This document shows, piece after piece, positions 6,271 to 31,432 of a stretch of 32,330 bases of DNA. This DNA comes from a virus, in IMG/VR virus record IMGVR_UViG_3300043539_000149, positions 1 to 32,330 of that record; one strand, given 5' to 3'. Numbering within the stretch: position 1 is the stretch's first letter; each line of letters begins with the position of its first letter. The translations under genes and the position numbers were made by a program. The notes under the pieces are model-generated. The model saw nothing but the letters and a program-made list of their open reading frames with translations. It did not search any database and had not been told where the DNA came from.

Positions 6271-9200
6271 TTAGATTCCTAACAATCGACGTAATTTCAA
6301 CGATCTAACGTTCCAGACGGGCTCCTGCTTTTCTTCAGGCGTACCCTCTATATCACCTAGATAGCCTTCTGACAAGCCCGGCCTGATAGGTAGTATCTGA
6401 GCAGATTCTTGCACCCTACTTCCAGGCGGAACAGTTGGCACCGTTCTTGGTTTAACGGTCAATGTTTGTTCAACTGTTATAGGCGGTGTTTCTACAATTG
6501 ATTCTGGCGGTGTAAATGGTGGCTCGATAGGAGGAGGAGGTGGCGTTTCAGGCACAGTTGGCTTCTCTAACTCTTTAATGATTTGTTGCAGCAATTGATC
6601 TTCAGGCGTGAGATCAGTAGGCGGCGAGATCAAGTCTTCTGGCTGCGTAGGTTCAGGCTCTTCTGTGTTGATCTGTGGCGTAGGTTCGGGCGTAGTCTGT
6701 ATAACTGTTTCAGGCTGAGTCTGAGTTACAGGCTCTGGTTGTGTTTGAGTCTGAGTTTGTGTTTGAGTTTGCGTCTGAGTTTCTGGTTGCGTCTGCGTGA
6801 CAGTTTCTGGCTGGGTCTGGGTTTGTGTTTGGGTTTCAGGTTGAGTCTGGGTTTGTGTAACGGTTTCGGGCTGAACTTGTGTGGCTGTATCTGTAGCTGT
6901 TTGCGTAGCCGTTTGCGCTGCAGTATCTGCGGCGGTTGTTGTTGATGTGGCTGTATTGTTAACCGTATCAACAGTTACGTTAGTCCCTGGTGTTAAAACA
7001 GTCCCTGTTGTATCAACTGATGGCACATTAGTAGCTCCTCCATCTTGGGTTAATACAAGTGAGGTTCCATCACCATTGTCTTGCAAGACAACGCCTGTTG
7101 TTGCATTTGTTGCTGGCGATGTAGGTTGCGCGACAGAAGGGGCCTGAGCTACATCTGCAGTTACGGTTGGAGTAACTGTAGGTTGTGTAGCAACTTCAGG
7201 CTGAACTTGCGTTGCAGTATCAGTTGCAGTCTGTGCGCCAGTCTGTGTTTGTGCGCCAGTCTGTGTTTGTGCGCCGGTTTGCGTAGACGTATCAGCCTCG
7301 GATGTTACCGCCGTACTTGTGTCTGTAGCCGTGCTAGTAACGGTAGCCGTGTTATTGGATGTGTCAACTGCAACACTTGTTCCAGGAGTGAGTGCAGTGC
7401 CCGTTGTTGCATCCACTGATAGCACGTTTGTTGCGCCACCGCTTTGCGTCAGCACAAGCGATGTACCGTTACCATTGTCTTGCAAGACAACACCAGTAAT
7501 TGTTGTACCAGTATCTACAGCAGCACCAGTTCCGCTACTACTAACAACAGGGCCGGTAGGAGTCACCGTAGGTCTTGGGTTAGCAATAATTTGCGCAGCA
7601 GTCTCGCCAGCACTTAAACGATTTGCAACAACAAATTTAGGCAAACCTGTTTGCGCAGCAATTGAAGAAACTTCATCAATGGCTTGCGTATCACTACCAG
7701 TTACAACCTCTTGCCCACCGCCTGAGTCAACCGCTACTCCACCACCGCCAGTTCCACCGCCAGTTCCACCGCCAGTTCCACCACCAGTTGCAACCACCGG
7801 TCTTGGATTGGCGATAATTTGTGCTGCCGTTTCTCCGGCATTTAGGCGGTTAGCAACAACAAATTTAGGCAAACCAGTCTGCGCCGCAACAGATGACACT
7901 TCATCTGCAGCTTGACTGCTAGCACCAGTTACAACCGGTGCGGGCGGTGTCGTTACTGTTGGCGCAGTAGGCAATACAGTCGTTTGACCTGGCTTCAAAC
8001 CATTAGCAGGAACAATGGTTAATGCGCCAGTGCTATCAATAACAGACGCTTGATTGCTGTTTACATCAACAGCAACAACAACGCCTGTATTTGTTGCGCC
8101 GGATGCAACATCAAAAGTCGGTATGTCAACACCGGCGGTTAGCAACGTGCCAAGGTTTCCAGGCGTTAAATCAACGTTAGGATTAAGAATTGTTCCCGTT
8201 GTATCTGTAGGAAGCCTTGTTCCCGTAACCGTAAGCGATGCTCCAGGAGGGGCAGCCACACCACCAGGCACTTGTACACCAAGGTTGTTTTGTGCTGCTG
8301 CCGCTAACTGTTCACCAGTGTTAATAGCGGCTGCAGTCTTGCCGCCAATAACGGCACCAAGCACCGCTTTACCTTTAGCGGCATTAGCATCGCCAGTCGT
8401 GATGTATTCAATTAAGCCTTCTTCTAATGCTTCAGTTGCCGGTTCAAGTAACGTCCTTGCAACGACATTGTTTGCACCTGGTATCAAGCCAATAGCAGCA
8501 GTAACGGCACCCGCAACACCAGCGTCCTGTCTTGCCATGCGAGCAAGCTCTTGTGGCGTTGCATTAGGATTCGCTGCTCTAAGTTCATCAATCTTTTGCA
8601 AGGCTTGAGCACCAGCGGATTCGGCAGCGTTTAATGCCATCGAGCCAAGGAACTGCGCTACTTTGCCACCAGGCAATAACAAACTAGGAAGTTCTTGAAT
8701 AAGTTCAGAACCAAGTATGGCCGCTGCGCCAGCAGGATTGTTAAGCGTAGCGCTAGCAATAGCTCTAGCAATTTGTTCTGCTGTTGAATTAGGATTGCTT
8801 GCAACGCGGTAAATCTCGTCAACAAATGCTTGCGACTGTTGATTTACCACCTCTGGCCGCATAAGTTCGCCAGACGTTTGAATAGCCCTAAATCGATCTA
8901 TAGCGCCTTGCGAGTCAACACCTAATTGCTGCGCTGTTGCGGAAATAGCCGCGCCCAACTCCCCAAGGCCAGCCTGTGCTGTGCCGGTAAAACCACCAGC
9001 AACTTCATTAGTTCTGGTGTAAACACTCTTGGTCTGGCTAACAATGTTGCCATTAGCGTCAATGGTGGCCGTATCACCCGTTACTTTATCTCGCTGCGTT
9101 ACCGTGCCATCAGCATTTTTAGTAACCACAAGATTGCCTACTGGCAATACATTGGTATCACGTTCCGTGCTGATACTCAGGCTTGCAAGATCGTTAGCTG

Positions 9201-11505
9201 TTAACTGTTTACCGATGAGATTTGGATCGCCTGCATAGAGAATGCCTTGGTATACAGCATTAGCAGGCAATGCTTCAACCGCGCCAATGACGTTAGGTTT
9301 GTCAAGAAACACACCACCACCTGCAATCGTACTTGCTTCACCAGTCGGCAGTAATTGCGTGATCTTTCCGGTATTGATGTCTCTTAGATAAATAGTTCCG
9401 TTTGGCCCTTGATAGCGTTCGGTCAACGGATAAAGTTCTCTAGCAGCAGCCTCTGCCGCTGTAATTTGCTGCGCACCCTGCATAGCTTGGTTAACCGTCT
9501 GCGCCTGATTAGCCGCCTGTTCTTGCGCCACAATGCCAAGCACATCGTCTTGCGTAACGCCACCAGTCGTATCCATACCGACATCAGGCGTAGTACCTAA
9601 CCCACCTGTCGTAACGCTAGGAGCGGTTGTATCAGTTGCTGCGCCGCCACCAACAGTTGTTGAGGCGCCTGGTATTTCTGGTGTTTGCTTTTGATTAAGC
9701 GAAGCATTTGCTCCACTTATAAATCCCTGCAATGCGGATAAACCAGAATCAGCCCCTGTAACTTGAGCTTGCAACGCGCTAGTTGCTGCAGATACTAATC
9801 CACTATCTATCGCTCTATCGCCTGTAATACTTAAACCTTGAGAAGCCGCTTGAGCGCCCGTTGCTATTAATGAATTTGTTACTGCATTCCCAACATCGCT
9901 ACCAGTTAAAGCGGCTGTAGCACCAGATCTAATAGCATTGTCAATAAATTGATTGCCTGTAAGGTTAGGAACCAACTGACTCACGCCAAAACTTACAGCA
10001 GCATTCTTTAGCGCGTCAGCAGGTTTTGCTCCAGCAGCAACGCTCAATGCAGCATTCATCACGGCATTGCCTAGCGCCTGAGCCATAACCGTGCTCGTTG
10101 CGCCAAGAGCCGCGCCTATAGCTACATTAAGACCAGGAACAACTGAGGCTATAAAAGGAATCCCTTCTCTTAAAAAACTTTCGCCAAAACTTATATCTTG
10201 AGCGCCTTTGTAATACGATGGTTCTCCTATTGGGACAAGCTGCCCATCTTGCAAACGGTAACTTTGCGCCGCTCGTTCTCTATCTTCGCCACCTGTTTTG
10301 CTGCCAATGTAAAAAACAAAATCATTAGAGCCAACATCCTGCGGTGTAAATGGCGTTTCAACCATTTCACCGTTTATTACTTTGTATGTTTTAACAAAAG
10401 TGCTTGTATGTCGGTCACCTTGACTATCAAACAATCCTTCCCCAAGACCTGGAAGCAACGCTATCGCTGCGTCTTCACCAAAATTGCCGACAGAAGACGC
10501 AACGCTTTCTCTTGGGCGCACTCCAATTTGAGCTTCTGTTTCTTGCAATTGGCTTGCAGCAGATGACGCGGAAGGCTGTTGAACAACAGGGGTTTGAACT
10601 GGCGCAAGTTCTTGCGTAACAGGCTGCTGAGTCTTTAACCAGTCGGTGTAAGCCTTTTGTAAGGTTGATCGAACTTGATCAATAGGCATGTCAAGTACGG
10701 CTTGTATTTCATCTGGAGAGCCTTCTCTCCCATAAATCTGACGAAACAGGTTTTGTCGTTCATTGGTTAAATTTTGTACGCGTTGCCGTTCTGCTTGTTC
10801 TGCAGCCAACGCTTGCTGCCTTGCAGTTTCAATTCTTTGAGCTTCAACTCTTGCAGCTTCTACTCTGGCTGCTTCTTGCCTTGCCGCTTCTTGTTGATCA
10901 GCTAATTGTTGTGCCCGTATTTGTTCTTGACGGATTGCCTCTACTCTTGCGGCTTCTACTCTTGCGGCTTCTGCTGCTGCCGCACGTTGCGCTTCAACCC
11001 TTGCCTCCTCTTGTCTAGCGGCCTCAATCCTTGCCGCCTCTTGTCTAGCAACTTCTTGCCTTATAGCTTCTTGTACAGCCGCCTCTCGTTCAGCGGCTAT
11101 TCTTGCTGCTTCTTGTCTTTCAGCTTCTAATCTAGCTTCTACTTGGCTTGGAGATGCTTGTATTGCCGCTTCAATTCTTGCGGCTTCTCTTGCTGCGAAA
11201 TCGGCTTGCAGGTTTGGCGGAGCAGAATAATCTAAATTTGTATCAAGACCAAACTGGGCAGCATGTCTTGATCTCATTTCAGGAGATAGGCCTAATAAAT
11301 AATCTTGGTCAACACCCGCATTTAACAGAGCCTGGAATCCAGTATGAGGTGGCGCGGGAGGAGGAGCGTACGATGGAGCAGAATAATTTGATCCATCATC
11401 AAGACCAAACTGAGCGGCAAGCCTTGACCTCATGCTATCAGACAGCCCTGATAAATAATCAGGGTCAAATCCTGCGTCTAAAAGAACTTGAAACGTAGTA
11501 GACAT
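6271..11505 (-). CDS. Giant modular repeat-rich virion protein, 1744 aa
   Basis: The largest gene, one intact frame. Approximate domain order: 4-96, a duplicated ~40-residue module (LSGLSDSMRSRLAAQFGL, then LLGLSPEMRSRHAAQFGL); 103-250, an Ala/Glu/Arg coiled coil; 251-290, a small helical unit (QIYGREGSPDEIQAVLD); 360-435, a mixed region; 445-605 and 920-1075, Gly/Ala-rich hydrophobic stretches that could enter membranes; 690-830, beta-type repeats; 1140-1525, duplicated modules joined by Gly/Thr linkers; 1527-1605, a TQ/QPE repeat; 1610-1744, a Pro-rich end with a basic tail. Size, hydrophobic hairpins and position suggest a T7 gp16-class ejection protein or a giant tail-associated protein. 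No transglycosylase motif is visible. The start lacks a clear ribosome site and lies just after the upstream TGA, so coupling is likely. Confidence 0.75.
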   Translation of the reverse strand: MSTTFQVLLDAGFDPDYLSGLSDSMRSRLAAQFGLDDGSNYSAPSYAPPPAPPHTGFQALLNAGVDQDYLLGLSPEMRSRHAAQFGLDTNLDYSAPPNLQADFAAREAARIEAAIQASPSQVEARLEAERQEAARIAAEREAAVQEAIRQEVARQEAARIEAARQEEARVEAQRAAAAEAARVEAARVEAIRQEQIRAQQLADQQEAARQEAARVEAARVEAQRIETARQQALAAEQAERQRVQNLTNERQNLFRQIYGREGSPDEIQAVLDMPIDQVRSTLQKAYTDWLKTQQPVTQELAPVQTPVVQQPSASSAASQLQETEAQIGVRPRESVASSVGNFGEDAAIALLPGLGEGLFDSQGDRHTSTFVKTYKVINGEMVETPFTPQDVGSNDFVFYIGSKTGGEDRERAAQSYRLQDGQLVPIGEPSYYKGAQDISFGESFLREGIPFIASVVPGLNVAIGAALGATSTVMAQALGNAVMNAALSVAAGAKPADALKNAAVSFGVSQLVPNLTGNQFIDNAIRSGATAALTGSDVGNAVTNSLIATGAQAASQGLSITGDRAIDSGLVSAATSALQAQVTGADSGLSALQGFISGANASLNQKQTPEIPGASTTVGGGAATDTTAPSVTTGGLGTTPDVGMDTTGGVTQDDVLGIVAQEQAANQAQTVNQAMQGAQQITAAEAAARELYPLTERYQGPNGTIYLRDINTGKITQLLPTGEASTIAGGGVFLDKPNVIGAVEALPANAVYQGILYAGDPNLIGKQLTANDLASLSISTERDTNVLPVGNLVVTKNADGTVTQRDKVTGDTATIDANGNIVSQTKSVYTRTNEVAGGFTGTAQAGLGELGAAISATAQQLGVDSQGAIDRFRAIQTSGELMRPEVVNQQSQAFVDEIYRVASNPNSTAEQIARAIASATLNNPAGAAAILGSELIQELPSLLLPGGKVAQFLGSMALNAAESAGAQALQKIDELRAANPNATPQELARMARQDAGVAGAVTAAIGLIPGANNVVARTLLEPATEALEEGLIEYITTGDANAAKGKAVLGAVIGGKTAAAINTGEQLAAAAQNNLGVQVPGGVAAPPGASLTVTGTRLPTDTTGTILNPNVDLTPGNLGTLLTAGVDIPTFDVASGATNTGVVVAVDVNSNQASVIDSTGALTIVPANGLKPGQTTVLPTAPTVTTPPAPVVTGASSQAADEVSSVAAQTGLPKFVVANRLNAGETAAQIIANPRPVVATGGGTGGGTGGGTGGGGVAVDSGGGQEVVTGSDTQAIDEVSSIAAQTGLPKFVVANRLSAGETAAQIIANPRPTVTPTGPVVSSSGTGAAVDTGTTITGVVLQDNGNGTSLVLTQSGGATNVLSVDATTGTALTPGTSVAVDTSNNTATVTSTATDTSTAVTSEADTSTQTGAQTQTGAQTQTGAQTATDTATQVQPEVATQPTVTPTVTADVAQAPSVAQPTSPATNATTGVVLQDNGDGTSLVLTQDGGATNVPSVDTTGTVLTPGTNVTVDTVNNTATSTTTAADTAAQTATQTATDTATQVQPETVTQTQTQPETQTQTQTQPETVTQTQPETQTQTQTQTQTQTQPEPVTQTQPETVIQTTPEPTPQINTEEPEPTQPEDLISPPTDLTPEDQLLQQIIKELEKPTVPETPPPPPIEPPFTPPESIVETPPITVEQTLTVKPRTVPTVPPGSRVQESAQILPIRPGLSEGYLGDIEGTPEEKQEPVWNVRSLKLRRLLGI
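6690..6930 (-). repeat. Thr-Gln (TQ/QPE) low-complexity repeat region
   Basis: In-frame repeat in the giant protein, residues about 1527-1605. Units such as TQTQPETQ and long TQTQTQTQ runs come from six-base steps of ACN-CAR with varied third positions. The tract is a likely hot spot for length change by recombination or slippage. It would form an extended stalk or linker. Confidence 0.85.
6933..7497 (-). repeat. Two copies of a ~55-residue module (VVLQDNG)
   Basis: Copy 1 lies at about 7323-7497 and copy 2 at about 6933-7101. Both read TGVVLQDNG-GTSLVLTQ-GGATNV, then TPGT-V-VDT-NNTAT. A diverged third copy, TGVVVAVDVNSNQASVID, sits near residues 1139-1160. The modules look like small beta domains separated by disordered Thr/Gln linkers. 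The family is not recognised. Confidence 0.82.
7238..7273 (-). repeat. Two perfect 18-bp tandem copies (QTGAQT)
   Basis: The unit on the plus strand is CCAGTCTGTGTTTGTGCG, at 7238-7255 and again at 7256-7273. It encodes QTGAQT repeats between the two VVLQDNG modules. Identity at every base suggests recent duplication. Confidence 0.9.
7570..7920 (-). repeat. Two copies of a ~40-residue module (AAQTGLPKFVVANRL)
   Basis: Copy A lies at about 7797-7920 and copy B at about 7570-7690, about 236 bp apart. Both encode DEVSS-AAQTGLPKF, then VVANRL-AGETAAQII and ANPRP. The protein is near identical while many third bases differ, so the duplication is not recent or selection holds the protein sequence. 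No known domain is recognised. Confidence 0.88.
7747..7782 (-). repeat. Three perfect 12-bp tandem copies (GGTG linker)
   Basis: The unit on the plus strand is GCCAGTTCCACC, at 7747, 7759 and 7771. It encodes repeated Gly-Gly-Thr-Gly and forms a flexible linker between the two AAQTGLPKF modules. Perfect copies point to slippage or recombination. Confidence 0.92.
10773..11199 (-). repeat. Ala/Glu/Arg coiled-coil repeat region
   Basis: Residues about 103-245 of the giant protein are built from EAARVEAAR- and RQEAARIEAAR-type units with little else, giving a highly charged continuous helix. The DNA repeats are imperfect, made of related GCN-GCN-CGN-GTN/ATN-GAR blocks. Confidence 0.85.
11215..11496 (-). 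repeat. Duplicated N-terminal ~40-residue module
   Basis: Residues 4-44 and about 56-96 of the giant protein align closely: F-LL-AG-D-DYL-GLS followed by MRSR-AAQFGLD and YSAP. They are separated by a proline-rich spacer. Such a module at the very start could dock the protein to a symmetric partner, but this is inference. Confidence 0.88.
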
Positions 11506-22267: not shown

Positions 22268-23269
22268 TTACAGCGTGAGTGAGTTAAGGCCGGTCACCAC
22301 GGTCATGCTCTTAGGCTTGGTGCTCACCATTTCAGCAATGGTCAACACTGCGCCAACATAACCAATCTGCCAGTTAGGCAGCGTGGACTCAAAGCCGGTA
22401 AACGCAAACTCAGCCTGATCGTGAATGTACATGCTGAGGTAGTTTGAGTTCAGCAAGTACAAAGTGCCCTCAGGGCAATAAGGATCAGGATAAATCGGCA
22501 CACCTGCAACCATGAGCGCACGGAAACCGGACGTTGGGCCTTCTTCACCGCTAGCAAAGTTGCTACCAGGGGTGATCATGTAGGTTTCTTGGCCTACAAA
22601 GTCTTGCGCCAACAATGTCCAAGTACCAAAGCCGCAAACACCAAAGGAAGGAACCTCAGCACCGTTTTTCACCGTTCCAGAGATGTACTGGAGGATGTTT
22701 TGACGGGTTGGGTTAACTGATCCTGCTGTGTACTCTTTAGAACGCCACCAAGCATAGGTCGAACGGCTAAGGCCGCCATAGGTGCCTGCCGAATCAACTG
22801 CAATGGGCAATCCAGTAAATTGCTGGCTGTTGCTGGTGTTGTTGTACAGCGCTGTTGCCATTGCATCCATCATGACGTTGGTCGCATCGTTCATGCGAGC
22901 CTCAATCAAAGGAATCACAGCATAGTCTTGCTGTACAGCACCTTCCATACCGAGGAAGGGAACTGGAGCGATCATCAACTTAAGGTTGAATTCAGCGTTG
23001 TAAGCACCCTGCATGACGCTAGGCTGTGCAAACGAACCGCTGTAGTCCGACCATTGTGCGTTGACAAACTGAGAACCCTGAACAGGCACGGTTACCGATG
23101 ACACACCGCCTGAAGCGGTCTGAGAATTGGCAAGCAATGCGGCAAGCAGGGGGGTTGAGTTGTAAAGCTGGACAACCAGTTTCGGAATGAAAGCCCTACG
23201 GGTAACGTAGGTCAGTTCATTGTACTGACTGGTGCCTGCTGTTGGGATAATACCGCCACCAATAGGCAT
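22268..23269 (-). CDS. Major capsid protein, HK97-fold type
   Basis: A 333-residue protein in the normal place after the scaffold. It starts with GTSQYNELTYVTRRAFIPKL and has the N-arm and long-helix texture of phage capsid proteins (AEFNLKLMIAPVPFLGMEGA, VIPLIEARMNDATNVMMDAM). The end is NWQIGYVGAVLTIAEMVSTK, suited to the A-domain and P-loop strands. There is no protease or delta-domain fusion; the separate upstream scaffold takes that role. The ribosome site AAGGAA is about nine bases before ATG. High expression is expected. The fold is inferred from family resemblance, not modelled. Confidence 0.87.
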   Translation of the reverse strand: MPIGGGIIPTAGTSQYNELTYVTRRAFIPKLVVQLYNSTPLLAALLANSQTASGGVSSVTVPVQGSQFVNAQWSDYSGSFAQPSVMQGAYNAEFNLKLMIAPVPFLGMEGAVQQDYAVIPLIEARMNDATNVMMDAMATALYNNTSNSQQFTGLPIAVDSAGTYGGLSRSTYAWWRSKEYTAGSVNPTRQNILQYISGTVKNGAEVPSFGVCGFGTWTLLAQDFVGQETYMITPGSNFASGEEGPTSGFRALMVAGVPIYPDPYCPEGTLYLLNSNYLSMYIHDQAEFAFTGFESTLPNWQIGYVGAVLTIAEMVSTKPKSMTVVTGLNSLTL

Positions 23270-24841: not shown

Positions 24842-26470
24842 CTACATAGCGGGTGGTGCGGAGCCTTCAGGCGTTGGTTGCTGCTGTTTTTGCATTTCTT
24901 GCGCTGCTTGTTGGGCCTGTTCCATCTTTCGGAGGTCTTCTTTGAGCAATTGCTTCATCGGAGGCTCCAAAATGTCAATCAAACGCTCTTTGGTGATGGC
25001 GCCACGGTCTGCAAGCGCAAATGCAAGGCTTCTAAGGTCTTCTGTAAAGATCGGTGAGTTGGAATGTGCATCCACTTTCACCACAAAGTCCTTAGTAAAC
25101 TGGTTTGCAATGAACTTATCACCCTGATCATCCGTGTAAATGCGGTCAGAATAGGCTTGCATGGCCTTTAAGTACAGCGTTGCCATCTTTTCTAACGCAT
25201 CTTCAATGATCAATGCACGTTTTTTAGCCCTTGAAGACCCTAAACGTGCCAATTGTGAGGCGTGACCAGCACTTCTAACACCTGATTCACCCCTGCCCTG
25301 CAACACATTGACAATACCAGAGGCTTCTTCAAACATCTGGTCAATCTCTGCAATCTCTCTAAAGAGATCATTCGGGATTGATGGCGCCATTTGCTCAACT
25401 TTGGCATTAGGCATGTCGGTAGAAAGCAAGCCACCAACACGGTTAAGCGCAAAGTTCTTCTCATCAAGCAGCCCTGTAAAGCCAATGAGCGCTGTAGGTG
25501 GTGAGACTTGCTTGGATAAGAGGTCAAGAATCTCTTGCATCCTCTTATTGCGCATGTCTTGCAAGAAAACCAGCCTTGCAACTTCAGAGATTCCCCAGTA
25601 GTAATCGTACTGCGGGGTTGGGCAAAGCTGAATAAATGGCAGTTCACCCTTTAAGAACATACTTTCACCAGCTCTGTCATAGATGATGACGTTAGGGTCA
25701 GCAATAGTGACGCACTGATAATCCTCAGTCATGTCATTCCAGACCCAAAGTTCAGTCATCTTGATCGTATCTTCAGCAACGCGAGCCTTGTATTGCTGCA
25801 TCCCAGCAATATTGAGATTCACATTACCGTACATCGTTGGGTCAGTGGCCGATAGGATCAAACGCTGGATGCCATCAGGCACTTGGTTCTCTTGGCTTTG
25901 CCCCATTTGCAAGCGAGCAAGCAGTGCCTCACGTTGCGGATGCGAGTAAAGCCTGGCGTATAACTCAGAGCGTGTGATGTAGTAAATCTGAATCAACGCT
26001 TCTTGGCGATCTGTGTGCGGCGTATCTTCTCGATACACGCCAATACACCGCGGATCAACCATGTAAGGGTGCAAGCCATTCTTTTGAATGAGCTTAATGA
26101 AGGTCGAGTTGTAGCAAAGCGCCCAGTTCAGCGCCTGGGCAAAGACCTGATCAGCGTTGCTATTGAGCCAATCGTCATTCAAAGCGCCTGTAAGCGAAGG
26201 AATCTTGGTTTGTTCGTGCTTATTAACCGAGGCGCCGAGCGAAATCGTAAAGCGTGTGGTTTCTGCTGAGTAGAGGAAGGAGGAGAGTTGGTCAATGTGC
26301 GGGTAAATCTTGTTGTAGTACGCAGGCGGTGCATCCAATCCCGCACCAAAGAGATAGTAAGAGCGCAGCGAGTCATAAGTACCCGTGCGCTCCTGAATGC
26401 TGACGGAGCACTTATCTACCAAGTCATTGTAGAAATACTCTCTCTGGATGGGATCGTCAGGAATTCTCAT
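24842..26470 (-). CDS. Portal protein, 542 aa
   Basis: Dodecameric portal that would form the DNA gate and docking site for terminase. Evidence is the family-like sequence and order after terL. Segments include NKIYPHIDQLSSFLYSAETT, WVWNDMTEDYQCVTIADPN, YDYYWGISEVARLVFLQDMR, and IDQMFEEASGIVNVLQGRGE with GVRSAGHASQLARLGSSRAK, typical of the stem and clip helices of podovirus portals. The C-terminus (380-542) is helical with a Gln-rich barrel-like end (EMQKQQQPTPEGSAPPAM). The ATG overlaps the previous stop (ATGA). The length is in the usual range. Confidence 0.88.
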   Translation of the reverse strand: MRIPDDPIQREYFYNDLVDKCSVSIQERTGTYDSLRSYYLFGAGLDAPPAYYNKIYPHIDQLSSFLYSAETTRFTISLGASVNKHEQTKIPSLTGALNDDWLNSNADQVFAQALNWALCYNSTFIKLIQKNGLHPYMVDPRCIGVYREDTPHTDRQEALIQIYYITRSELYARLYSHPQREALLARLQMGQSQENQVPDGIQRLILSATDPTMYGNVNLNIAGMQQYKARVAEDTIKMTELWVWNDMTEDYQCVTIADPNVIIYDRAGESMFLKGELPFIQLCPTPQYDYYWGISEVARLVFLQDMRNKRMQEILDLLSKQVSPPTALIGFTGLLDEKNFALNRVGGLLSTDMPNAKVEQMAPSIPNDLFREIAEIDQMFEEASGIVNVLQGRGESGVRSAGHASQLARLGSSRAKKRALIIEDALEKMATLYLKAMQAYSDRIYTDDQGDKFIANQFTKDFVVKVDAHSNSPIFTEDLRSLAFALADRGAITKERLIDILEPPMKQLLKEDLRKMEQAQQAAQEMQKQQQPTPEGSAPPAM

Positions 26471-26904: not shown

Positions 26905-27298
26905 AGTTTCTCCTTAGTTGCTGGTCAAGATCAGGACGTTGATAGTCTTGGGATTTAGGTCGAATACCAAGATCAAGTTTGAATCCGCTGCCATCGTAGG
27001 TAACGAGCCTGCGCCTTACCATTTGCGGCTTGGGTTGCTTGCGAAACTCCACATACTTCTTACCCGACTTCACCATGACGGCGACTTCGCCATTGACCCA
27101 ATGCTCATAAGCGCGGTTCACACGGGTCTGTACAAGTTCTGTGAGCGGGTATTTGCCATTGAGAAACACATCTCTTAGGTGCAAGGGGTCAAGGCCGCAT
27201 AACTCGGCAAACAAAGCAATGGAAATGCCGCGTTTCTTGTCACGCATAAACGCAGGAATCACTTCCATCATTTGACGCTTACTGAGGCCCAACGCCAA
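26888..27298 (-). CDS. HTH protein next to terL, small-terminase candidate
   Basis: Starts at TTG (27298), with AAAGG close upstream, giving MALGLSKRQMMEVIPAFMRD; an in-frame ATG at 27271 would remove nine residues including this conserved start. Residues 24-60 read as a helix-turn-helix (ISIALFAELCGLDPLHLRDV) with a basic following part and the motif VEFRKQPKPQ. Proteins with this layout sit beside the terminase large subunit in many phages, so it could be the DNA-recognising small subunit, or a regulator. It overlaps terL by 20 bases. The DNA-binding fold is an inference from the pattern. Confidence 0.75.
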   Translation of the reverse strand: MALGLSKRQMMEVIPAFMRDKKRGISIALFAELCGLDPLHLRDVFLNGKYPLTELVQTRVNRAYEHWVNGEVAVMVKSGKKYVEFRKQPKPQMVRRRLVTYDGSGFKLDLGIRPKSQDYQRPDLDQQLRRNYGSRS

Positions 27299-29039
27299 TA
27301 GCCTTTAAGTAGTTGTTGATCTGCTTATCCACGACCGGCACTTGCACGGGCGTTATGGCTTCTTCTTTGCGATCGCGCGTCATACGCATTTGCAAGAGCC
27401 TTGGCATGAGCTGTTCAGCAAAGGCAACGCAAGCAAGGGCTGTCGCAATGACACGATCATCTTTGTTGCGCCCATAAGCAGCAATAGAACCCTGGTCACG
27501 CACGACGGACTTCATCTCTTCAAGTAAGTCCATCGAGTAGACATTCATCATCCCGCGCTCAAAGTAATCCTTAAAGTAATTCAGCATCCGCTCTTTGGAC
27601 GAATGCGTGGTTAGGTAACCAAGCGAGTTCGAGACACCGCCTAGTGAGTCATTACGCCGCCACAGGTAGTGCTGCATGTGCGATAGGACATCCATTAAGC
27701 CTCTAGCCTTGCGCGGTTCCATTGTCTGCGCTTGGCGTTTAAGGTTGCGCATCTCATTGATCACGGCTTGACCTGGCCCGTTCACTTCCAGGTTTAGTGT
27801 GGAGTTCTTATAAGCCCCTGCCAGGTAGCAGACAACCCAAGCGAACTGGTAGGTGTTGAGTTCAGAGGTAGCGAATTCCGCAACTTGATCAAGTCCATCT
27901 GCATAGCAACGGTAGATTTGGATACAGAAACGATCAGCCCAGTCGCTGCTTCCATATGCTGGATCAGCACCGATGACGTAGTAGGCGTTTTCAATCGGCT
28001 CCTCCCATACTTTTAACGTTGCCATGCGCTCTGTTGAATTAATTAACTCAGTGTCTTCAAAGTATTGTCCCATTGAGAAGCGGTAGAACCGAGGTAATAA
28101 CTGCTTAGCAACCTTGGCTTGATCAGTGCAGCGGGCATGTGAGAAGAAACTCGAACCCGTCATGATGAAGGCATAGTCTTCTGTGGGCGGAAACTCTTGA
28201 TACATGAGGGCTTCATCCTTAATCCCCTCATTCATCTTCCATCGCCACCAGGCAATCTGTCTTGAATTGATCTCTACCTGGTAGAGCTTCTTAATCTCTC
28301 TTGTCCATTCCTTTTCTTCAGGACTTAGCTTGCCATCCCAGTACACCTTATAGACATCTGACTTGGCATCAGCACTGTAGAGTTCATTGCGCCACCAACC
28401 GCAGAAAATAGCCTTCTGGGTTCTTGCACGTTTAGCCACCGCCCACATGTCATGCCACATATTGAAGCCACGCGCTGTGCTCTCAAAAAGGTAGAGCCTA
28501 TTGGGATTCTTTTCTGCAAGCGATGCCAGCAATGAAGCCAATCCTTCTTCATCACCCCAAGACGATGTTTCTGTGCCATGCAGGTAGGTAATACCTTTAC
28601 CACGCCCTAAAGAACCCTTGGCTCGCAAGCCTGCCACCTGGTAGAAGAGCCTTGATCGGTTCTTTAAGACCATTTGATTCCTGTTATGCGTCATCAAAGG
28701 AATCTTGTACTCCGGTGGCAAACCATCCATGTACATGGCAAGTGTGGTTCTAAACTGGTCTCGGTTCTCTTCGGTATCGGTTGTGAGCGTTCCCTGAAAC
28801 CCAGGGTTCTTAAAATGCCAGTAAAGGTCAAGGGCAAGCGATATGGTCGTAATCCCTAACTGCCTGCCCTTCAGAATCACAAAAAAGTGCGTACCTTGAT
28901 TTAAGCCTTTAGCCACTTCCTCCATGACATAGGTCTGGCTGCCCAATAAACGCTGTCCAAGGCGCTGTATGCCAAGCTCCTTTGTCTCTACCTTCAATTC
29001 CCTACAAAACCTGTAGAAGTGCTGTAAATCAAAGTTCAT
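27279..29039 (-). CDS. terL: Terminase large subunit
   Basis: ATP-driven DNA packaging motor and nuclease, 586 residues. Motif order fits: adenine/Walker A region LKGRQLGITT (56-65, with Lys57, Arg59 and Thr64 in place of the classic GKT loop), Walker B-like GITYLHGTETSSW (149-161, with Glu157 as likely catalytic residue), coupling motif FESTARG (185-191), and nuclease acidic residues Asp359 (GADPAYG), Glu418 (LEVNGPG) and Asp527/528 (NKDDRVIATAL). The Walker B has His-Gly-Thr-Glu instead of the usual Asp-Glu. The start overlaps the stop of the four-cysteine gene (ATGA). Packaging strategy (cos or headful) cannot be told from the window. Confidence 0.93.
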   Translation of the reverse strand: MNFDLQHFYRFCRELKVETKELGIQRLGQRLLGSQTYVMEEVAKGLNQGTHFFVILKGRQLGITTISLALDLYWHFKNPGFQGTLTTDTEENRDQFRTTLAMYMDGLPPEYKIPLMTHNRNQMVLKNRSRLFYQVAGLRAKGSLGRGKGITYLHGTETSSWGDEEGLASLLASLAEKNPNRLYLFESTARGFNMWHDMWAVAKRARTQKAIFCGWWRNELYSADAKSDVYKVYWDGKLSPEEKEWTREIKKLYQVEINSRQIAWWRWKMNEGIKDEALMYQEFPPTEDYAFIMTGSSFFSHARCTDQAKVAKQLLPRFYRFSMGQYFEDTELINSTERMATLKVWEEPIENAYYVIGADPAYGSSDWADRFCIQIYRCYADGLDQVAEFATSELNTYQFAWVVCYLAGAYKNSTLNLEVNGPGQAVINEMRNLKRQAQTMEPRKARGLMDVLSHMQHYLWRRNDSLGGVSNSLGYLTTHSSKERMLNYFKDYFERGMMNVYSMDLLEEMKSVVRDQGSIAAYGRNKDDRVIATALACVAFAEQLMPRLLQMRMTRDRKEEAITPVQVPVVDKQINNYLKAIGVGPQ

Positions 29040-29188
29040 TGCGTACCTGGTTCATATTCATACTTCATGCAAGGCTTCTCAGCCAATAAGCCATCTCTTA
29101 TGCAAATCAAAATCTCCTCCTTATCACCTTCCTTTTCTTTGAGTCCAATCGCCTGACTCCATCGACACGTTTCGCAAGAAGGTGTCAT
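29036..29188 (-). CDS. Four-cysteine miniprotein, 50 aa
   Basis: Too short for many ORF filters: it begins MTPSCETCRWSQAIGLKEKE and ends MKYEYEPGTQ. Cys5, Cys8, Cys29 and Cys40 (CxxC, then two later Cys) suggest a zinc or metal site, a layout common in small phage proteins with a CRW segment. Both junctions overlap: ATG with the XF1762-like TGA, TGA with the terL ATG. It may regulate or assist terminase, but this rests only on place. Confidence 0.8.
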   Translation of the reverse strand: MTPSCETCRWSQAIGLKEKEGDKEEILICIRDGLLAEKPCMKYEYEPGTQ

Positions 29189-29658
29189 ATAGCCTCCCAA
29201 AGTAGTTTTTGCCCTCTCAAGGCTTCATCAGTATCAATTCTTGGTCTAGACCTTACATTCCAATTACCGCCGCCTTTAAGACCTATACATCTCCAGTTAG
29301 ATGCTTTTAATGAAGCCCCTCCTTCTTCTGGTAGCGTGTAAGTAATCAGCCTTTTATATCCAAGCGCTTTAGCAGCTTTCCAAGACGCTGAATACAACAT
29401 AGAGCAAGCGTTTTTAGTTCCATCCGTACAACAACGATTGACTTCTAAAGTCCAACCGTTATCAAGCAACCTAGCAACCGGTCTTCCAACAATAGCAACG
29501 CCAACAATCTTTTCATCATGACTCACTGCTACACAGAATTTACATCCTTGCATTGGCTTGTGATGTCGATGATGAAGACTTACAAAAGCATTGGCCTCTT
29601 CAAAAGTTATCGGCGTAATTTCCAAAGGGCTTCCAGTCCATAATTCTCCTTTAACCAC
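29185..29658 (-). CDS. XF1762-family (GNAT-like) protein, 157 aa
   Basis: The segment EEANAFVSLHHRHHKPMQGC, then VAIVGRPVARLL, TDGTKNACSMLYSASWKAAK and YTLPEEGGASLKASNW matches the XF1762 family of phage and prophage proteins, which is placed near GNAT acyltransferases by fold. No reaction has been shown to my knowledge. It starts at GTG (29658), with an overlap of about 52 bases with the small upstream gene; a later start would cut the conserved N-terminus. Its stop overlaps the next ATG (ATGA). Family recall is fairly firm, function open. Confidence 0.87.
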   Translation of the reverse strand: MVKGELWTGSPLEITPITFEEANAFVSLHHRHHKPMQGCKFCVAVSHDEKIVGVAIVGRPVARLLDNGWTLEVNRCCTDGTKNACSMLYSASWKAAKALGYKRLITYTLPEEGGASLKASNWRCIGLKGGGNWNVRSRPRIDTDEALRGQKLLWEAI

Positions 29659-29795
29659 AATACCGTTTTCTCTTCATCAGCCGTCAAAGGTCTTTTCTCC
29701 CTCTCTTCGGCATACCATTTCATCGCTTGGTACGGATACGTCTTATCACCCTCCGTATACCGCTTAATCCAAGCAATCTGAAATTCATGACTCAC
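29607..29795 (-). CDS. Small helical hypothetical protein, 62 aa
   Basis: Starts at GTG (29795), overlapping the previous TGA (GTGA), and overlaps the XF1762-like gene by ~52 bases at its 3' end. Trp/Tyr/Lys-rich helices (WIKRYTEGDKTYPYQAMKWY; EEKTVLWLKENYGLEALWKL). No recognised family. The long overlap raises doubt, but the tight upstream junction and protein-like composition support it. Confidence 0.62.
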   Translation of the reverse strand: MSHEFQIAWIKRYTEGDKTYPYQAMKWYAEEREKRPLTADEEKTVLWLKENYGLEALWKLRR

Positions 29796-30019
29796 TCAAC
29801 CCGCCACACCCTTACACCATTCTCCACCTTCCTCGCTGTGAACTTCTTTCCTGTTCTTCTCCACTCTCTATAGTTAGCATTACATAGCTTAGATAGATCA
29901 CCACCTTCAAGGTAGAAACTATCTCCTAGCTCTAACTGGTCGTAAGGGTATTTAGGCCCTGTCTTCCTCTCCGGTATATCTAAACCTCTCTCTAACGTAA
30001 ACATCTCGTACATCTCCAT
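29792..30019 (-). CDS. DUF7303-like small phage protein, 75 aa
   Basis: From ATG 30019 the protein reads MEMYEMFTLERGLDIPERK, then YPYDQLELGDSFYLEGGD and GKKFTARKVENGVRVWRVE. A Pro-rich lead, a GDSF turn and a final RVWRVE strand match a small family I recall as DUF7303, spread in phages and of unknown function. Two in-frame ATGs (30013, 30004) are alternatives; GGAG precedes the last. The 53 residues upstream in the open frame (to 30178) cover GC-rich DNA with non-protein-like composition and are probably untranslated. It is the first gene of the leftward cluster. Confidence 0.75.
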   Translation of the reverse strand: MEMYEMFTLERGLDIPERKTGPKYPYDQLELGDSFYLEGGDLSKLCNANYREWRRTGKKFTARKVENGVRVWRVE

Positions 30020-30332
30020 GTTGTCGATGTACTCATCATACACAAATAGATATTTAAGGTAGGCAGGAAAACAGAAAATTCCTTGGGGCGGGGACGGTAG
30101 TGGTGCACCCAAATCCCGACCCCCCGTCCCATTCGCATTGCCAGACAACGATCGATCTGCGCGACTGGTTGCGGCCAATTGCTACCCGATTGGACTTGAG
30201 CAGAGTGATGAGTAGGCATGTCATGACGGGTAAAGGCTCACCGTCCGTCCCTTGTGCCCCATTGTCAATTGATGCAGGGAGCGTATAGATAACAATCATC
30301 TTATGTCCCTGATACATCAATGATAGGACTAA

Positions 30333-30376
30333 CCCTATATATATCTATAGATAGAACCCTATATCCCTATATATAG
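30333..30376. repeat. CCCTATAT direct repeats with 12-bp palindrome
   Basis: CCCTATAT occurs at 30333-30340, 30357-30364 and 30365-30372. Between the first two lies the perfect palindrome TATCTATAGATA (30342-30353). Such AT-rich repeats are typical of easily melted or protein-bound sites, so operator or origin use is plausible. Confidence 0.65.
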
Positions 30377-30386
30377 TTTTTAAGAT

Positions 30387-30423
30387 TCTAAGAGTACATC
30401 TCTAGCATGGAATATATCTTAGA
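30387..30423. repeat. Inverted repeat TCTAAGA / TCTTAGA
   Basis: TCTAAGA at 30387-30393 and TCTTAGA at 30417-30423 are perfect complements with a 23-base spacer. The stem is short, so it may be a protein site or chance. Confidence 0.4.
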
Positions 30424-30458
30424 GTGTATTTGTGTGTATTTGATACCAAAGTATATAG

Positions 30459-30478
30459 AGCATGTTCACAAAGCATGT
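30459..30478. repeat. AGCATGT direct repeat, operator-like
   Basis: AGCATGT at 30459-30465 and 30472-30478, start to start 13 bases, with TCACA/TGTGA complementarity across the second copy. AGCATG also occurs at 30403. It lies about 45 bases before the first rightward gene, a place suited to an operator. Confidence 0.4.
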
Positions 30479-30519
30479 GATTATTCTCTTGTAGTTCTTA
30501 ACCAATAGGAGATTAAAAA

Positions 30520-30705
30520 ATGACTAAGCAAACAAGCAAACAAGTAGCAAACCTTGATCTACACCGCAAGCTTGGCAATGACTATGCTGTGGCATCCGGA
30601 TTGTCAGCGCTGATTCGATCATCAATGCGGAAAGCTGAAAAGCAAGAGCTCTTAGAGCTTGCTGCAGCATGGGATGTGATCAATCACCAAGCTTTCATTG
30701 TCTAA
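30520..30705 (+). CDS. First rightward gene, small helical protein, 61 aa
   Basis: Starts MTKQTSKQVANLDLHRKLGN with GGAG eight bases upstream. Residues 17-55 form an amphipathic helix set (ALIRSSMRKAEKQELLELAA). It is mildly basic, with no TM or cysteine. A leading small gene after a divergent promoter is often an early regulator or host-takeover factor, but no motif shows this. No family recognised. Confidence 0.75.
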   Translation: MTKQTSKQVANLDLHRKLGNDYAVASGLSALIRSSMRKAEKQELLELAAAWDVINHQAFIV

Positions 30706-30754
30706 CTAATCACAAAGGGGCTAACCACCCTCCTAACCTTTGGAGATAGACATC

Positions 30755-31432
30755 ATGGCAATGCAATCAGCTGAATACAACAAACCACAAGTAAAGCTCA
30801 GCGTTACCAGTAAGCTCGACGGCATTAGATCATGGAGCTTGCAAGCTCTCGAAACATGCCCGGGTTCCATAGCATCAAACGGCGAGCTTGTTGATGCTTG
30901 CAAGGGATGTTATGCAATGCAAGGCAATTATCGTTATCCCAACGTGAAAGCTCCACGCCTATTTAATCGCGATGACTGGCAGCGCGATGAGTGGGTGTTT
31001 GAGATGGCGCAGTCACTAGACAATGATCGATACTTTCGTTGGTTCGATAGCGGTGACATGTATTCGATAGATCTAGCTAGAAAAATCTACATGGTCATGC
31101 AAGCTACACCACATGTTAAGCACTGGCTGCCGACTCGTATGCATAAGTTTCCAAAGTTTCAGGCAATCATTGAGCTTATGCGCGAGCTTCCCAACGTAGT
31201 AGTCCGCGCAAGCTCCGATAGTGTCACCGGTGACGTGTTAACCGATCAATCCCACTCGAGCACGATTGCAAGCTCATTCGATGACTCATCGATTAGCGTC
31301 TGTAAAGCTTATGAGCACGGCGGGAAATGTTCTGGCTGTAGAGCTTGTTGGGATAAATCCGTGCCAGTTATTGGCTATGTGGCACATGGGAAAAGCATGG
31401 CTAAGGTAATCAAGCTTAAGGTGACAGCATGA
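30755..31432 (+). CDS. gp88-family cysteine-rich protein, 225 aa
   Basis: I choose ATG 30755 with GGAGA eight bases upstream; a TTG at 30740 overlaps that ribosome site. N-terminal segments LDGIRSWSLQALETCPGSIA and CKGCYAMQGNYRYPNV, the middle YFRWFDSGDMYSIDLARKIY, HWLPTRMHKFPKF, and the final CKAYEHGGKCSGCRACWDKS match the phage gene-product-88 family (cyanophages, mycobacteriophages) as I recall it. About four N-terminal and four C-terminal cysteines suggest a metal or iron-sulfur site. Biochemical function is not known to me. Its stop overlaps the next ATG. Confidence 0.85.
   Translation: MAMQSAEYNKPQVKLSVTSKLDGIRSWSLQALETCPGSIASNGELVDACKGCYAMQGNYRYPNVKAPRLFNRDDWQRDEWVFEMAQSLDNDRYFRWFDSGDMYSIDLARKIYMVMQATPHVKHWLPTRMHKFPKFQAIIELMRELPNVVVRASSDSVTGDVLTDQSHSSTIASSFDDSSISVCKAYEHGGKCSGCRACWDKSVPVIGYVAHGKSMAKVIKLKVTA

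Follow-up and report, generated by a model that had tools for sequence, protein, structure and literature searches.

In phage lambda, the cos site is next to the terminase genes, where the structural operon begins. It is described in part of PMC9611059 as a G-rich site that is recognised by terminase. In phage P2, the cos region is a short stretch of conserved DNA, 55 bp in length, that is needed for packaging, and the cohesive ends of both P2 and Smp131 are G-rich [excerpts of PMC3931495]. For phages with direct terminal repeats, among them T3 and the N4-like IME11, repeats of 81-540 bp are given in a portion of PMC3896407.

The window considered here is the whole of a viral record, 32,330 bases long, from an uncultured tailed phage from water. 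Its late genes run leftward, with the terminase near the start of the operon, its early genes run rightward from 30520, and the gap between the two sets (30020-30519) is the subject of this analysis (Table 1). From the letters alone, a sequence-only reading had called this gap a two-part divergent control region, with a density of repeats unlike the rest of the window, and had proposed that it was an origin or a regulatory switch.

Table 1. Features of the gap and of the genes on either side of it (positions in the window)
Feature	Positions	Strand	Description and basis
Major-head-like gene	22268-23269		Late leftward set
Portal-like gene	24842-26470		Late leftward set
Terminase large subunit	27279..29039	-	
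75-aa protein	29792..30019	-	Opens the terminase operon; weak similarity to DUF7303, under the Pfam cut-off
Strip	30020..30064	.	Between the 75-aa gene and the core; possible late-operon leader or promoter
A-tract and T-tract arm	30066..30084	+	Core, left edge; the window reads GGAAAA ... TTCCTT
GC-rich half	30085..30293	.	Proposed packaging/terminus module; GC step
Site A	30085..30109	+	GGGG-run with GTGGTGCACC, the centre of the conserved core on one strand; cross-validated profile, alignment
CCGTCCCATTCG	30124..30135	+	Right-hand conserved block of the core
Site B	30277..30293	+	GGGAGCGTATAGATAAC, proposed cut zone
AT-rich half	30294..30519	+	CCCTATAT repeats and palindrome; probable early promoter/operator region
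AGGAGA	30507..30512	+	Likely ribosome-binding sequence of the first early gene (ATG at 30520)
First early ORF	30520..30705	+	61 aa, no family found
GP88-family early gene	30755..31432	+	Pfam PF17338, 104 bits against a cut-off of 24.4

Homologues of the 75-aa protein that borders the gap adjoin the conserved core described below in distant relatives as well. Its predicted structure (pLDDT 89.7) is beta-alpha-beta-beta, and a fold search returned no solved relative at E<=0.001 (best E, 0.53). No small terminase was recognised among the proteins searched; in two distant relatives, a small gene before the terminase (L365, 1767-2096; L367, 6684-6911) looks winged-helix-like by eye and is a candidate for this role. 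The terminase operon of the window also contains a Mom-like DNA modification gene (29185-29658, minus strand; PF25680, above the cut-off). Six relatives (L002, L003, L030-L032 and L040) align straight through this gene, and because the alignments of many others skip about 29183-29626, it looks like an optional insert. A tRNA search found none. Eight relatives sit in bacterial genome records, but the titles of these records name conflicting groups (beta- and alphaproteobacteria, Balneolaceae, Nitrosomonadales, Lentisphaerae, Patescibacteria and Saccharibacteria), and consequently no host is claimed.

The two-part composition noted earlier is real: GC content is 0.574 over 30085-30293 versus 0.301 over 30294-30519. 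This step is kept in 23 of 25 relatives, in which mean GC is 0.525 from the core to +205 versus 0.358 over +215 to +420. Furthermore, the longest right-hand ORF points away from the terminase in 21 of 24 relatives, the exceptions being L357, L384 and L373. Thus, the description of the gap as a two-part divergent region stands as far as its layout is concerned, with late genes going left, early genes going right, and a conserved GC/AT step between.

The repeats that had been listed are likewise all present at their positions. CCGTCCC occurs at 30124 and 30245 with an inverted GGGACGG at 30091; the AT-rich half holds copies of CCCTATAT at 30333, 30357 and 30365, the 12-bp palindrome TATCTATAGATA at 30342, TCTAAGA at 30387 with its inverted partner TCTTAGA at 30417, and AGCATGT at 30459 and 30472. 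Over the 500 bases, 7-mer pairs exceed those of shuffled sequence, both for direct pairs (25 versus a shuffle mean of 9.8, with 1 of 500 shuffles as high) and for inverted ones (26 versus 10.2, with none of 500 as high). The excess of direct repeats is held by the AT-rich half (19 versus 4.6 in shuffles; 2/500), and the GC-rich half alone is ordinary in direct pairs (3 versus 2.3; 199/500) as well as inverted pairs (6 versus 2.5; 42/500). The claim that the density is unlike that of the rest of the window could not be upheld, since 54 of the 637 sliding 500-base windows of the contig contain more pairs; the highest counts belong to those that start near 7.4-7.6 kb and 10.7-10.85 kb. These densest repeats lie within a 1744-aa open frame (6271-11505, minus strand) that has no PHROGs match.

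The GC-rich half contains an element of about 80 bases, read on one strand, that consists of an A-tract, a T-tract, a GGGG-run, GGGGC and CCCATT. Its consensus, taken from 33 sequences, is AAAA-n-AATTTTTTTT-GGGG-n-GG...GGGGC...CCCATT. The A-tract/T-tract arm takes the form AAAA ... TTTTTTTT in distant relatives (alignment of 33 cores) and is variable in the close clade, with an identity of 0.76 over 30065-30082. In L357, whose terminase is 37% identical, the spacing from TTGGGG to CCGTCCCAT is 41 bases, exactly as in the window, and the element is present there even though the nearest long ORF on its far side runs in the same direction as the terminase.

Relatives were obtained by a terminase search, of which the best 80 of 104 confirmed loci were used. 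In the close clade, the gap aligns across most of its length, and it is a patchwork in which some blocks are near-fixed and others switch among a few quite different alleles. Identity to the window among 25 close relatives is 0.98 over 30020-30064, 0.91 over 30083-30098 and 0.94 over 30099-30135; it is 0.60-0.81 in the remaining blocks of 30065-30490 and falls to 0.28 over 30491-30519. A profile of 30070-30169 weakly reached relatives whose terminases are 70-77% identical (E 2e-7 to 0.4), in which a like arrangement is visible by eye. A scan with TTGGGGCGGGGANGGT added at least 13 further loci in which the arrangement can be seen by eye, amid many matches that, by the same inspection, are unrelated, such as those of the L275 group. 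The first pattern scan also caught 21 loci that have no homology to the region.

A five-fold cross-validated profile was then applied to the 36 terminase loci that have at least 1200 nt upstream. The element was found upstream of the terminase and on the same strand, at 10 bits or more, in 33 of the 36, and in the controls (the other strand, both downstream strands and reversed sequence) there was none in 36 at 8 bits or more, the best score being 7.9. Training used 20 loci that had been chosen by a hand-made expression; of the 16 not so chosen, 13 nonetheless scored 13.5 bits or more. The close clade of the window contributes four of the 36 loci, three of which hold too little terminase for clustering, and when this clade is counted once, the element is present in 30 of 33. 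It was missed in L364, L366 and Hydrogenobaculum phage 1. The distance from the element to the terminase start ranges from 266 to 2898 nt, and each of two circular genomes, of 35.6 and 34.2 kb, has one copy at 12 bits or more. The region is thus conserved, as an element in 33 of 36 relatives and as an aligned gap in the close clade. BLAST searches of phage records with the region and with the core of a relative gave two short matches each, at E 0.5 and 1, and a literature search for the core string in phage, for DUF7303 and for packaging-site wording found no paper.

Several relatives carry insertions around the core. In L027, L035 and L044, insertions of about 0.5-0.65 kb lie between the 75-aa gene and the core, which is kept; the strip at 30020-30064 is replaced by the insertion in L027 and L035. 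In L022, L024, L026, L028, L030 and L031, a 32-nt insertion just right of site A repeats the T-tract and the GGGGCGGG part of that site, resulting in a doubled core.

The positions at which metagenome contigs end were examined as well. Among the relatives, 87 terminase-bearing contigs end to the right of the core, 39 of them within 1000 nt, and of these 39, 10 end at 200-221 nt from the GGGG and 7 at 40-65. Once relatives that end at similar positions are removed, 34 ends are left, and a single 22-nt window at +200-221 contains 7 of them (P=0.0018, for a window width chosen after the data had been seen). Contig ends downstream of the terminase, used as a control, show at most 2 of 21 in such a window within 1000 nt (P=1) and a borderline 5 of 56 within 2500 nt (P=0.056). 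A G-run begins 13-19 nt short of the end in 7 of the 13 contigs whose ends lie at 140-225 nt, compared with 4 of 65 with more distant ends and none of 7 with nearer ones; this register was likewise chosen with the data in view, and two of the seven contigs, L065 and L067, are near-identical in terminase. The contig of L027 ends at the base that aligns with window position 30293, where the GC-rich half stops, and in several phages site B resembles site A. Site B is not claimed as a family-wide motif, since it is not clearly enriched (9 of 30 before and 4 of 24 after removal of relatives, versus 1-3 of 24 elsewhere). A cut at one exact base inside the core was rejected, the contig ends of the close clade being scattered.

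It should be noted that most contigs continue through the site. Among the loci examined, no early-side contig starts within 471 nt of it (two start at 472 and 585), and left-hand contig ends form no clear cluster, lying at 302 nt and more in one set, with three at 94-117 in another. The group of ends at 40-65 nt, at the edge of the conserved core, may be an effect of assembly, and that at 200-221 nt could be one too, because alleles change there as well. On their right-hand side, the clustered contigs have no detectable similarity to one another except within two pairs. A single 37,502-base contig (L276 and L297) has the element at both ends; over 299 columns, the first 127 of the two copies are identical and the next 172 contain 8 differences, all right of the core, a pattern in keeping with mixed strains and a switch point at the core, and short of proof of a molecular repeat.

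Taken together, these results have led to a hypothesis that we hold with moderate confidence, namely, that the GC-rich half is a DNA-packaging and genome-terminus site (cos or a short terminal repeat) lying beside an early promoter. The argument is that the element follows the terminase through its divergence and sits at the start of the terminase-portal-capsid operon, that no RNA fold was found for it, and that contig ends cluster at a constant distance from it. The order site-terminase-portal-capsid is that of lambda-like left arms. In this model, the terminase, whose operon lies just to the left, would recognise the one-strand core (T-tract, GGGG-run, GGGGC and CCCATT) on concatemeric DNA and would cleave it at a defined position, for which the vicinity of site B (about 30293) is the most likely. 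Cleavage at B would generate cohesive ends; with additional cleavage at site A, the product would have a direct terminal repeat of about 190 bp. The linear genome would then start at one end with the terminase-portal-capsid-tail operon and would carry at the other end the early genes, with the AT-rich promoter at 30294-30519. Given its excess of direct repeats and its position before the early genes, the AT-rich half is likely to be an early promoter/operator region just inside that other end. Consequently, the proposal of an origin or regulatory switch survives in part: a regulatory role is likely for the AT-rich half, but the GC-rich half is better explained as a packaging/terminus element linked to the terminase.

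The main competing explanation, which we regard as unlikely, is that the element controls the late, terminase-first operon in the leftward direction, as a phage-specific late promoter, an activator site or an antitermination leader. Such a site would be expected to keep to one strand and one position immediately upstream of the terminase operon, as the element does, a single copy per genome suits one late operon just as well, and in the 25 close relatives the strip at 30020-30064 is even more conserved (0.98) than the core (0.91-0.94). However, such control leaves the contig ends at +200-221 unexplained, as it does a terminase that can be up to 2898 nt away with optional genes and insertions between, and the core has no promoter-like match of the sigma-70 type, the one type scanned (over 29700-31000, there are 3 sigma-70-like matches versus 2.7 in shuffles, which is not above chance). 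If the gap were merely a divergent promoter/operator with alleles shuffled by recombination, the contig ends would mark places where assembly breaks at strain differences; the divergent genes of 21 of 24 relatives and the change of allele blocks near both groups of contig ends agree with this. We nevertheless consider it quite improbable, given that the element persists in L357, L384 and L373, where the longest ORF is not divergent, and that the right-hand sequences of the clustered contigs, two pairs apart, are dissimilar.

The gap is non-coding, contains repeats and is GC-rich beside AT-rich, which would suit a replication origin, and GC skew does change in the window at 30020-30519; in two circular relatives, the minimum of the skew lies about 0.4-0.6 kb away from the core. 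Gene direction switches at the same point, so the change in skew is not independent evidence of an origin, and the check on skew that the sequence-only reading had proposed yields a change that coincides with this switch. In addition, the element accompanies the terminase, whereas the early genes on its right differ from one relative to another, and no replication initiator was identified beside the site among the proteins searched. The origin is therefore left unsupported, and we judge it improbable. Least probable is a structured non-coding RNA, for instance one that serves in packaging or a leader of the riboswitch type. The inverted CCGTCCC/GGGACGG arms suggest one, and in the close clade RNAalifold gives local helices with covariation terms on both strands; on the 33 divergent cores, however, it gives 0 pairs, and a helix scan of 26 close sequences finds just short helices with scattered compensations. 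Furthermore, the close clade retains CCGTCCC unchanged while the sequence that would pair with it varies, and neither the region nor the whole window has an Rfam match. A G-quadruplex (four runs of at least three G, loops of 1-7) was also considered and discarded, as it fits 2 of the 33 cores and the core of the window is not one of them.

The packaging/terminus reading can be extended, in a speculative way that we think rather doubtful, to a two-site signal common to a large group of uncultured phages. The two edges of a short terminal repeat would be set by site A and, some 190 bp away, by a G-run site B, and end joining between co-infecting genomes would make the site a hot spot for the exchange of early regions and would account for the cassette-like alleles found between these sites and next to them. 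At least 590 stretches encode related terminases, and 36 were tested for the element. If the packaging/terminus reading itself is correct, sequence would be enough to locate the packaging site in many uncultured phages and to draw their linear maps in the absence of isolates, and the element would offer a DNA target with which to seek the unrecognised small terminase. The reading also suggests that the ends of metagenome contigs can carry information on molecular ends.

Two relatives on record are the uncultured phages ctz7E20 (MW202753) and ctah5458 (MW202825) from Manatee Spring, which are circular at 35.6 and 34.2 kb, encode terminases 73% and 72% identical over the match, and have one copy of the element each; their feature tables are without termini, and ctah5458 is flagged UNVERIFIED_CONTAM. 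With T3 and the N4-like IME11, the locus would share an early region just inside one end, and the putative A-B repeat of about 190 bp falls within the 81-540 bp given for such repeats in the portion of PMC3896407 cited above; in contrast to these phages, the sole contig that carries the element twice, once at each end, shows 8 differences between the copies over 299 positions. The P2-like cos differs in its gene neighbours, and the cut at the site of the present phage is a putative one. The cohesive ends of P2 and Smp131, as given in the excerpts of PMC3931495, share GGCGGGGA with site A, a resemblance that serves as a lead rather than as a test. Unlike lambda, the phage has no small terminase that could be recognised among the proteins searched, but as in lambda, a G-rich site and the terminase genes lie side by side where the structural operon starts.
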